From NCBI GenBank assembly GCA_023954475.1, contig JAMLHW010000009.1, forward strand, positions 124,001-188,000: a stretch of DNA of 64,000 nucleotides, given 5' to 3'. The notes below the pieces were generated by a model. That model had not been told where the DNA came from and made no database searches. It saw only the letters and a program-made list of their open reading frames with translations. This stretch comes from Anaerolineae bacterium. GTDB taxonomy: Bacteria; Chloroflexota; Anaerolineae; Promineifilales; Promineifilaceae. The translations under genes and the position numbers were made by a program. Position 1 is the first letter of the stretch, and every line of letters begins with the position of its first letter. Positions 23,560 through 27,380 of the stretch are shown one piece after another.

Positions 23560-24207
23560 ATGAGTAGCTTGTATCAGTTTCGGGAATGTCAGAACAGCTT
23601 GTGCCGCTTTCGGTTTCCGGTCGATGCATCGGCCGAAAACGGCGATCACTGTCCACTATGCAACACACCGACACGCTTCGCCGCACAATCGCTGCCGCAA
23701 TCACCCACCATGTCTACAAATGGTGCCGCGCACCGGCAGGTCGTCGCCGTACTCGATAATTTGCGCAGTGTCCTCAATGTCGGTTCCATTTTCCGATCGG
23801 CCGATGGTGCCGGCATCGAGCATCTGCATTTGTGTGGCACCACGGCAACACCCGACCACCCCAAATTTGCAAAGACTGCATTAGGCGCAGAAACAAATGT
23901 ATCCTGGTCGTACCATCGCAATGGTGTCGATCTGATCGAAACGCTTCAAGCCAACGAGTATACAATTTGGGCACTGGAAGCCACACAATCATCGCAATCG
24001 CTATTTACCACTCTGCTACCCGATACGCCGCTCGCACTGGTGGTCGGCAACGAACGCGCCGGAATCGATCCCGATATTCTGGCTCTGTGTCATCGTGTGC
24101 TGCACCTGCCGATGTGCGGTGTTAAAGAGTCGCTCAACGTCGCCGTCGCCTTTGGCATCGCCGCCTACCACCTGACATACCAAATGATTGACCAGGAACC
24201 AAACTAA
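23560..24207 (+). CDS. SpoU/TrmH-family RNA methyltransferase with N-terminal zinc-ribbon-like segment
   Basis: 215 residues. The C-terminal 150 residues are a SPOUT methyltransferase: motif 1 N-L-R-S-V-L-N-V-G-S-I-F-R-S-A-D-G, motif 2 L-V-V-G-N-E-R-A-G-I-D, motif 3 L-P-M-C-G-V-K-E-S-L-N-V-A-V-A. These bind S-adenosylmethionine in a trefoil knot and methylate 2'-O positions of tRNA or rRNA. The N-terminal 40 residues hold Cys10, Cys15, Cys31 and Cys34 (C-P-L-C), a likely zinc knuckle for RNA contact, not standard in the family. The target nucleotide is unknown. It is 3 bp ahead of the AhpD-like gene, so the two are cotranscribed. Confidence 0.87.
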   Translation: MSSLYQFRECQNSLCRFRFPVDASAENGDHCPLCNTPTRFAAQSLPQSPTMSTNGAAHRQVVAVLDNLRSVLNVGSIFRSADGAGIEHLHLCGTTATPDHPKFAKTALGAETNVSWSYHRNGVDLIETLQANEYTIWALEATQSSQSLFTTLLPDTPLALVVGNERAGIDPDILALCHRVLHLPMCGVKESLNVAVAFGIAAYHLTYQMIDQEPN

Positions 24208-24210
24208 TCC

Positions 24211-24825
24211 ATGCCGTATATCAAGGTTTTTTCCCTCGCAGAAGCACGCGGCAATCTCAGACGCGAATACGAAAAGGCGCTCGACCGTGCCGGACGTATC
24301 TGGCATATCGTCAGCATCATGAGTCAAAATCCGCGAGCGATGAAAAGTTCAATGGACTTTTACAGCGCCATTATGACCGGCAAATCACCGTTGAGCCGGT
24401 CGCAGCGCGAAATGCTGGCAGTCGTCGTTTCAGTTACAAACGGCTGCATTTACTGACTGCGTGCCCACGCATATGACCTCCGTGCTGAGGTTATGGAAGA
24501 TTTCGGGTTTGAAGACGAAGTAGAAGCGGATTTGTTTGTACACCACATTGCCTCTGATTGGCGCAAAGCAAATCTAAATGCGGCTGATCGCGCATTGTGC
24601 CGTTATGCTGAGAAGTTGACAAAGGAGCCGGAGAAAATGGATTCGGCCGATATCGGGACTCTACATACCTTTGGCTTCGACGACCGTGCCATCCACGATG
24701 CGACACAAGTGATCAGCTACTTCAACTACATCAACCGCATCGCCGATGCACTCGGGGTCGAGCAAGAAGAATTCATCCGCCCGTGGGAAAAATCACCTTA
24801 CCTCAATCATCAGAACAAGGAGTAA
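24211..24825 (+). CDS. AhpD-like peroxidase, probable selenoprotein (in-frame TGA = Sec at residue 82)
   Basis: Read through the TGA at 24454-24456 the frame runs 204 codons without another stop. The part before the TGA ends L-S-R-S-Q-R-E-M-L-A-V-V-V-S-V-T-N-G-C-I-Y and the part after begins L-R-A-H-A-Y-D-L-R-A, together the complete core of an AhpD-like alkylhydroperoxidase (peroxidase-related family). Homologues have C-x-x-C at this point; here it is C79-x-x-U82, with the proton-relay His at 86. Sec in place of the resolving or attacking Cys is known in AhpD-like proteins. A 9-bp hairpin starts 15 nt after the TGA (next entry). The alternative is a point nonsense mutation or sequencing error; intact downstream coding argues against decay. 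Selenium genes are not in the window. Confidence 0.78.
24472..24495 (+). promoter_or_regulatory. Candidate bacterial SECIS hairpin
   Basis: TATGACCTC (24472-24480) pairs with GAGGTTATG (24487-24495) in nine consecutive pairs (two G-U) around the 6-nt loop CGTGCT. The loop begins 24 nt after the TGA. Bacterial SECIS elements sit immediately downstream of UGA, inside the coding frame, with a short stem and a loop containing G/U about 16-37 nt away, so position and shape fit. The folding was done by eye. Confidence 0.65.
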
Positions 24826-24827
24826 CC

Positions 24828-27380
24828 ATGTCTTATCCAATCCGACGCATTGCACTGCTTTGCAGTTTATCAGCCGGCGTACTACTGACCCTGCTTGTCG
24901 TTATACTTGCCGCAAGCGGCTCAGTCACTGCTGCGAGTGAAGCGACAGCAACAGCGAAAAAAGTTATTGCCACTGACATCTTTACCAATGTCACCGGGTC
25001 TGCCGGTATTTCGGCCCCCCACAACAAGGATGAATTGGGCACAGGCCAGGTGTTTTTCGATTTCGATAATGACGGATGGCTCGATCTATTTTTGACCAAT
25101 CAGCTCGGCCCGAACCAACTGTACCGCAACAACGGCGATGGAACATTCACGCTCTCACCGCTATCCGCACAAGTTGCCATTACCGATTCGCTGAGCCTGG
25201 GTGCATCGGCCGCCGACTTCGACAATGACGGTTATCGCGACCTGTTTGTCGCTGTATGGGGCGGGCCAAATGCATTGTTCCACAACGATAACGGCACAGG
25301 ATTTACCAATGTCGCCGCCGACGCGGGCGTTGCCAATATCGGGCCGAGTGAAGCCAATGCGTGGGGCGACTACGATGATGACGGTTTTCTTGATCTTTAT
25401 GTCGCCAACTATTCTTGCGACACGTGTGGCACATCTCTGCCGGACCAACTGTATCACAACAACGGCGATGGCACATTCAGCGATGTCAGTCACCTGCTCA
25501 GCCTGGAACAACGCAGCAAGATGGGTTTTCTCGCCGGCTTTGCGGACTATGACAACGACGGTGATGCTGATCTATACGTTATCAACGACCGCCTGCTGGC
25601 TAACACGTTGTGGCGCAACGATGGCGCAGGCTGTGGCGGTTGGTGCTTTACCGATGTCTCGGTTGCGGCTGGCGCTGATACGCGCGTCTATGGCATGGGA
25701 CTGGGCACCGGCGACTACGACAACGATCTCGATCTCGATTTCTACTTTACTAACATTGGGCCGATGGTGTTATTGCAAAACCAGACCAGCCAGGGTTCGG
25801 CCGAATTCATCGACGTAGCCCCGGCAGCCGGCGTTGCCTACGATACTGTCGGCTGGGGTGCGATCTTTTTCGACTACGACAATGATAGCTGGCTCGATCT
25901 CTATTTCGCTGCGATGGCATCTGACAACATGAACCGTCTATTCCACAATGAGCAAGACGGCACGTTCAGCGATGTCACAGCCAGCAGCGGGGCAAGTGAC
26001 CCGCTCGACTCAATTGGCGTCGCTTATGGAGATTACGATCAGGACGGCCTACTCGATCTGATCGTCGGCAATTTTGACACCGACTATCGACTGTATCGCA
26101 ACACAGGCAGCACAAATGCCGTCACCAACAACTGGCTGCGCGTCAAACTGATTGGCGCTGCGCCGATCAATCGCGATGCTATTGGCGCACGCGTTTACCT
26201 CACCACCAGTGACGACTTGGTCCTCATGCAAGAAGTGAAGAGCGGATCCAGCTTCGGTGCAGGTAGTGATTTGGCACTGCATTTCGGACTGGGGCAAGCA
26301 ACTATCGCTGAACTGACTGTGCGCTGGCCTAACGGGGAAGAAGAGACCTACAGTGATGTGCCGCTCAACCAGCAATGGTCATTGACATACTCACCAGCCG
26401 AACTGGCGCTTGCTCCCAACTATGATCTGACAGCAGAGCCAAATACAGTCGTGACGCGTACCCATTGGCTGACGAATAGTGGCATCACAACCGACACGAT
26501 CACGTTAACGGTTGCTTCTGCGCAGGGCTGGACGGCGATTGAACCAGCAGAAGTCACATTGGCCAGCGGTGCTTCGGCCGAAATTATCGCCACCTTTACT
26601 GTCCCCAACGTTATCGAAACAATGGAAACAGCCTCGATCACCGCCAGGTCAACACTGGACAGCGCCGTTTCGGCTACCGTCACCGATACCGTGACAGTCG
26701 GATCGCCTGATGTCGGTGTCGTCCTGATACCAGATCACGCCGTGACTGCTGAACCAAACTCGCTTGTCGTGTTGACGCACACGCTGACCAATACGGGGAC
26801 ATGGACAGATACATTTGCGGTCACGTACGAGTCTGCACAGGGCTGGACGACGGTGGCACCACTGTCGGTTGAACTGGCGAGTGGCGCTTCGGCCGAAATT
26901 ACGGCACTCGTCACAGTTCCGGCCGTCGTCGCAATGACTGAGGTTACAACCATTACGGTGACATCGTCCCAGGACGGCGCTGTTGCGGCCGAAGTGACCG
27001 ACACCGTGACGGTACCACCACCGACAGCCGCTGTTGCGCTGTCACCCGGCCAGCAAATTACGGTTACACCAGGCACAACGGCGCTATTCACGCACACCAT
27101 CACGAATACCGGCACATGGACTGATACGTTTACCGTAGAAGCTGTTTCCAGTCAGGGATGGACGGTTACCATACCGGGAATGGTGACGCTGACATCCGGT
27201 GCATCAGATTCTCTCGTTGTGCAACTGAGTGTGCCGGATGATGCCACCGGCATCGACATCGTGACAATTATGGCTACCTCTCAAACTGATCCGACCGTTA
27301 CTGCGTCGGCAATCGATTCGGCCGAAGTCGTCATCCCACAAACGGATGTGGTGATCTTCCTACCTGTGGTCACGAGATAA
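24828..27380 (+). CDS. Secreted FG-GAP/VCBS repeat protein with ASPIC/UnbV domain and three NEW3-like repeats
   Basis: 850 residues from the ATG at 24828; its AAGGAG is the tail of the previous gene, 2 bp upstream, so the two are coupled. A signal peptide covers about 1-36. Residues 45-430 contain about seven FG-GAP/VCBS blades marked by D-F-D-N-D-G-W, D-Y-D-D-D-G-F and similar calcium-binding loops, a beta-propeller. Residues 433-515 are an ASPIC/UnbV domain. Three repeats of about 100 residues follow, each with T-N-T-G, T-D-T-F and Q-G-W-T, like NEW3 adhesion domains. The protein ends V-V-I-F-L-P-V-V-T-R, a tail resembling the LPxxxR endings of many Chloroflexota exoproteins. Probably a surface or extracellular binding protein; the ligand is unknown. 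Confidence 0.85.
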   Translation: MSYPIRRIALLCSLSAGVLLTLLVVILAASGSVTAASEATATAKKVIATDIFTNVTGSAGISAPHNKDELGTGQVFFDFDNDGWLDLFLTNQLGPNQLYRNNGDGTFTLSPLSAQVAITDSLSLGASAADFDNDGYRDLFVAVWGGPNALFHNDNGTGFTNVAADAGVANIGPSEANAWGDYDDDGFLDLYVANYSCDTCGTSLPDQLYHNNGDGTFSDVSHLLSLEQRSKMGFLAGFADYDNDGDADLYVINDRLLANTLWRNDGAGCGGWCFTDVSVAAGADTRVYGMGLGTGDYDNDLDLDFYFTNIGPMVLLQNQTSQGSAEFIDVAPAAGVAYDTVGWGAIFFDYDNDSWLDLYFAAMASDNMNRLFHNEQDGTFSDVTASSGASDPLDSIGVAYGDYDQDGLLDLIVGNFDTDYRLYRNTGSTNAVTNNWLRVKLIGAAPINRDAIGARVYLTTSDDLVLMQEVKSGSSFGAGSDLALHFGLGQATIAELTVRWPNGEEETYSDVPLNQQWSLTYSPAELALAPNYDLTAEPNTVVTRTHWLTNSGITTDTITLTVASAQGWTAIEPAEVTLASGASAEIIATFTVPNVIETMETASITARSTLDSAVSATVTDTVTVGSPDVGVVLIPDHAVTAEPNSLVVLTHTLTNTGTWTDTFAVTYESAQGWTTVAPLSVELASGASAEITALVTVPAVVAMTEVTTITVTSSQDGAVAAEVTDTVTVPPPTAAVALSPGQQITVTPGTTALFTHTITNTGTWTDTFTVEAVSSQGWTVTIPGMVTLTSGASDSLVVQLSVPDDATGIDIVTIMATSQTDPTVTASAIDSAEVVIPQTDVVIFLPVVTR

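Follow-up and report, generated by a model that had tools for sequence, protein, structure and literature searches.

Background: AhpD-like selenoproteins with CxxU

AhpD-like proteins in which a CxxU motif carries selenocysteine (Sec) are already in print: their reports in the Sargasso Sea survey (PMC1088965) and the GOS survey (PMC2398784) concern CxxU selenoproteins, and among the families listed in a 2026 review (PMC13188914) there is an AhpD-like selenoprotein assigned to TIGR01926 with CxxU, for which the listing gives MCB9421940.1 as an example record and cites as reference 59 what is apparently the Sargasso Sea survey (COG2128). The legend to Fig. 2 of the same review models the bacterial SECIS as a hairpin with a loop of 3-9, a stem of 4-16, a spacing of 16-37 and an energy of ≤ -7.5, with a G in the first two loop positions. 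A further point of reference is PA0269 of P. aeruginosa (2O4D), for which the account of the active site in PMC3141380 gives a relay of Glu36, Cys48, Tyr50, Cys51, and His55 and weak reduction of H2O2.

The window analyzed here is a 64,000-nucleotide stretch of an Anaerolineae genome, and 24211-24825 of its forward strand (on which all window features described below lie) is, in our judgment with very little room for doubt, the gene of a Sec-containing AhpD-like TIGR01926 protein whose UGA is decoded by way of a SECIS hairpin inside the coding region (24472-24495). It shares both the NCBIfam model and the CxxU motif with the AhpD-like selenoprotein of the review; measured against that entry, nothing basic differs, the window host being a Chloroflexota genome, and the clade of the window gene also takes in marine Actinomarina members of the family. 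The gene adds one more member to a published family and is not new in kind, in agreement with a sequence-only reading of this DNA that had called AhpD-like proteins a known selenoprotein family.

One gene read through a TGA

The gene comprises 204 codons and a TAA stop (24823-24825) and is read through a single in-frame TGA at 24454-24456, the UGA for Sec82 and the second redox position of C79-I-Y-U82. Cys79 (24445-24447), the first residue of CxxU, is invariant in alignments of 30 and 47 rows. The read-through product has 204 residues, with the TGA at codon 82 followed by 122 more. Standard ORF calling returns two pieces, of 81 aa (24211-24456) and 110 aa (24493-24825), and for this reason an automatic pipeline may well break the gene in two, as the sequence-only reading had foreseen; the basis for taking 24211-24825 as one gene is the conservation of homologues on both sides of the TGA. 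That reading had also placed the TGA where AhpD homologues have the second Cys of CxxC and had followed the frame through 122 further codons that include the family His. Homologues do have either TGA or Cys at this column, the frame is open as far as the TAA, and His86 is invariant.

The read-through protein scores 140.1 bits against TIGR01926 'peroxidase-related' (peroxid_rel, NCBIfam; cut-off 81.8) and 43 bits against Pfam CMD (cut-off 23), and falls below the cut-offs of AhpD proper (TIGR00777; 19.2 bits versus 191.95) and of AhpD_rel_CFYUT (NF041238; 64.1 bits versus 175).

Selenocysteine machinery of the source genome

The source genome (G000; 5.12 Mb in 26 contigs, 97.9% complete), to whose contig 26 the window belongs, contains all four of the components whose presence had been proposed as a check. 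Its tRNA-Sec scores 63.1 bits, over the gathering score, and is called SeC with anticodon TCA by ARAGORN; selA (546 bits), selB (354 bits), and selD (370 bits) are all on contig 12.

Several other genes of this genome carry candidate Sec codons. The selD gene (L044, contig 12, 502257-503192) itself contains an in-frame TGA, in a CAGU motif close to the N-terminus, a SelW-like Rdx gene with CVPU lies on the minus strand of contig 20 (L162, 524969-525181), and two peroxiredoxin-like genes have an in-frame TGA in UPFC (L159, contig 24, 122812-123180) and UIHC (L167, contig 1, 707314-707769). As judged from these reading frames, Sec is likely used in at least five proteins. Formate dehydrogenase alpha gave no match over cut-off in the source genome; a formate-dehydrogenase-like stretch on contig 1 (172413-172865), interrupted by two TGA codons and a TAA, adjoins a longer open match.

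Homologues and the TGA column

Matches at 1e-10 occur in 38 of 98 genomes of relatives; by manual count, a TGA lies inside 46 of the 63 matching places, including all 39 best matches. TGA stands at the Sec82 column in every one (80/80) of the best 80 of 573 loci in the genome collection. A tree of 92 sequences together with 20 more distant Sec and 12 Cys sequences unites the window gene and its closest homologues in one group (support 100/99). All 92 distinct sequences of this clade have TGA at the Sec82 column, a count to be read with the scope of genome searches that were led by a Sec query and could have under-sampled Cys members. The 92 are what is left of 96 clade loci once the duplicates L047, L079, L095, and L102 are dropped, and repeat loci among L138-L155 (11/18) were likewise removed before counting. 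When 400 genomes were drawn from the phylum, 10 had a match at 1e-35, with TGA inside 11 of 11 places. One of these matches (G157, contig 8, 5439-5936) holds both a TGA and a TAG.

Clade records are labeled Chloroflexota, Gemmatimonadota, Planctomycetota, Actinomycetota, Latescibacterota, and Myxococcota; they are mostly metagenome-assembled genomes (MAGs), so single phylum labels may be wrong. By codon comparison, the sequence after the TGA is under purifying selection: dN across ten homologues is 0.25-0.32, with dS saturated (not computable) in nine and 2.5 in one. A manual comparison found selA over cut-off in 51 of 64 genomes that have no TGA homologue and in 30 of the 34 that have one; with selA so widespread in the class, this co-occurrence carries no information. 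The four genomes with a TGA homologue and no selA over cut-off (G020, G026, G062, and G067) are MAGs of 490-1270 contigs. Viral contigs gave 39 pattern matches to the gene, none confirmed as a relative.

A SECIS hairpin inside the coding sequence

The hairpin at 24472-24495 has a 9-bp stem (24472-24480 with 24487-24495) and a 6-nt loop, CGUGCU (24481-24486), with 24 nt between UGA and loop and a folding energy of -9.3 kcal/mol. The sequence-only reading had described a 9-bp hairpin with a 6-nt loop at the distance typical of bacterial SECIS elements, and this description stands: loop, stem, loop sequence, spacing, and energy all lie within the published constraints without difference from the model, the loop having, like the model (PMC13188914), a G in second position and then a U. 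None of 200 dinucleotide shuffles folds as well. Synonymous recodings are as stable in the same register in 418 of 20,000 cases (2%), and 244 of 5,000 have some model-allowed hairpin of equal stability. Taken by itself, the window hairpin is weak evidence.

Comparison across the clade, by contrast with that single sequence, is decisive and indicates that the hairpin is kept by selection there. Of the 92 clade sequences, 90 (all except L028 and L075) have a stem of 5 bp or more in register 24/6 or 25/4, so that the loop starts 24-25 nt after the UGA; synonymous recoding gives a mean of 14.2 of 92 and a maximum of 23 in 100 rounds. None of the 12 Cys homologues has such a stem, and neither does any of the 20 other Sec sequences. 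Most homologues retain the inner seven pairs (alignment columns 21-27 with 34-40), and the outer two are mostly absent, being unpaired in 65 and 89 of the 92. Cells changed on both sides of the stem number 43, versus a shuffled mean of 18.3 (SD 7.2; 0 of 500 as high), and slid versions of the stem reach at most 27.

Codon bias within the hairpin is extreme. Leu is CTC in 88 of 91 sequences (background 0.27), Glu is GAG in 91 of 92 (background 0.49), and Ala is GCT in 37 of 63 (background 0.11). Arg is CGG in 50 of 91 and CGT in 41, with CGC at 0 although CGC makes up half of Arg codons elsewhere; the third base of this codon is the G or U wanted by the SECIS model after the loop G. Eight of the 12 Cys homologues have D-L-R at the same place, with Leu as CTG in all eight. 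The loose SECIS model lacks specificity: some other hairpin passes it in 7 of 12 Cys homologues. When the energy limit is applied strictly to a perfect stem, only 72 of the 92 sequences in the clade pass, and 15 of the 20 other Sec sequences. The check proposed earlier, a comparison with bacterial SECIS prediction, has two outcomes, a window hairpin that fits the published model and a structure that is under selection across homologues.

Alternative explanations

Sequence evidence establishes the gene, its column of TGA, the presence of Sec machinery, and selection on the hairpin. Other accounts of the TGA were considered and set aside. Were it an ordinary stop, marking a recent pseudogene or two separate genes, the two pieces returned by mechanical ORF calling would be natural, and TGA does close 8 of the window's 35 longest ORFs of 200 aa or more; against this stand the same TGA column throughout the 92 clade sequences, low dN with near-saturated dS downstream, and residues invariant on both sides, and close relatives show no other stops. 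We regard this account as scarcely credible. A true TGC or TGT misread in sequencing or assembly is just as hard to credit, given that the same TGA recurs in independent assemblies from many projects and that the sampled Cys homologues are without the hairpin register.

Reading of the TGA as Trp or Cys, through near-cognate read-through or a changed code and with no part for a SECIS, is possible in principle, as TGA can be read through by other means. It is nonetheless very improbable: TGA serves as a stop elsewhere in the window, the source genome has the complete Sec set, and selection acts on a hairpin and its codons exactly downstream of the TGA, where Cys homologues with D-L-R use CTG rather than CTC. 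The hairpin could also be a by-product of the conserved peptide H-D-L-R-A-E-V with no role of its own, and the single-sequence recoding test (418 of 20,000 as stable) is weak enough to leave room for this; yet recoding of the clade falls far short of the observed 90 of 92, Cys homologues with D-L-R lack the register, and related Sec sequences keep the hairpin in another codon phase, so that we consider a by-product very unlikely as well. The preferred reading thus remains Sec at 24454-24456, which the earlier reading had judged credible and which is supported by the machinery, by a column of TGA or Cys, and by the selected hairpin; neither a lack of Sec machinery nor an unrelated stop in relatives was encountered.

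Related Sec sequences and a shifted register

Outside the window clade, 18 of the 20 other Sec sequences form one group, and in 18 of 20 the hairpin lies 16-18 nt after the UGA (register +16 to +18, as against 24-25 in the window clade). It is commonly CGGAGC-CGGGCT-GCTCCG, and the loop CGGGCU is often common to both sets. A position 7 nt nearer the UGA means another codon phase, with the same loop lying over A-G-L rather than R-A. Register 17/6 is found in 13 of the 20, versus a recoding mean of 1.2 and a maximum of 4. A separate covariation count, made on a set of 13 related Sec sequences, shows no excess and no pair changed on both sides; it is weakened by three of its members (L036, L038, and L041) that fit a neighboring register better. 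The case for a hairpin in these sequences is therefore one of register and codon choice, not of covariation. The sequences with a hairpin mostly 7 nt nearer are L029-L041, L139, L141, L144, L149, L150, and L152. L148 (G057, contig 76) is a Sec homologue without the usual registers and has a possible third one, in which 28 nt separate the UGA from a hairpin with loop AGTT.

The related Sec sequences are not one clade in the tree, which calls for two changes (L038 and L148 branch outside, on long branches), and their common history is therefore unsure. We lean, with some reserve, toward the view that the SECIS of the TIGR01926 family has moved by a distance that is not a multiple of 3, and that in the window clade, all-Sec as sampled, Sec is old and has rarely been lost. 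The all-Sec clade (in this sample) and the 7-nt register shift are the points of novelty, and mildly new ones; literature searches not closely aimed at a phase shift of a SECIS, with subscription journals mostly outside their scope, found nothing on it.

Fold, relay, and a possible mechanism

By prediction, the product is an all-helical protein of the AhpD fold (AlphaFold2 with 47 sequences; mean pLDDT 91.9, pTM 0.88). The best solved-structure matches are the peroxidase-related and AhpD-type proteins 2PRR, 6K40, 2OYO, 2PFX, and 3C1L, in which the fold is the same (Z 23.8-24.5 over 176-181 residues); 3C1L has Cys where the window protein has Sec. The AhpD-type relay of E, C, Y/H, C/U, and H is found with correct spacing as E67, C79, Y81, U82, and H86, matching Glu36-Cys48-Tyr50-Cys51-His55 of PA0269 in residue and spacing. 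The invariant Glu67 (24409-24411) is the counterpart of Glu36 in PA0269 and Glu118 in AhpD of M. tuberculosis, and the invariant His86 (24466-24468) that of His55 and His137, with spacing as in the relay described in PMC3141380. PA0269 differs in being shorter, at 23% identity, and in having Cys instead of Sec.

These features suggest a mechanism in which SelB with Sec-tRNA-Sec would decode the UGA at 24454-24456 under the direction of the hairpin at 24472-24495, itself inside the coding sequence. Going by the relay as described for PA0269, Sec82 and Cys79 would form a redox pair; homology points to a peroxidase, and most likely the product would reduce H2O2 or organic hydroperoxides through a Cys79-Sec82 selenenylsulfide, which a cellular thiol may then reduce. 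Sec insertion in the source organism, the reaction, its substrate, and its reductant are all proposed here in this conditional sense.

Gene neighborhood

A gene for a SpoU/TrmH-type RNA methyltransferase (23560-24207) lies directly upstream with a 3-nt gap, and its spacing suggests that it is probably on one transcript with the selenoprotein gene. Downstream is a gene for an FG-GAP / ASPIC-UnbV repeat protein (24828-27380), whose likely ATG at 24828 comes 2 nt after the stop, ORF calling starting the frame at GTG 24783; going by spacing, a transcript common to all three genes is likely. None of the window's flanking families recurs in the 92 homologue loci, among clusters listed with at least 4 loci. 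An Ada-like gene lies downstream, mostly within ~1 kb, in 14 of the 92 (for example, L074, 4237-5268, the one in which domains were checked: an AraC helix-turn-helix and a 6-O-methylguanine methyltransferase). In scans for promoters and terminators, the number of candidates was close to or lower than the shuffled means.

Implications

What looks truncated at 24211-24825 would be a whole selenoenzyme gene, of a kind that gene callers likely miss here and in related genomes. Its many homologues form a compact collection in which to follow how a SECIS within coding sequence persists as the protein changes, with codon choice, compensatory changes, and the shift of phase from one related group to another directly visible. 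If the proposed history of the clade is true, Sec in these proteins would be an old feature rather than a recent Cys-to-Sec change.
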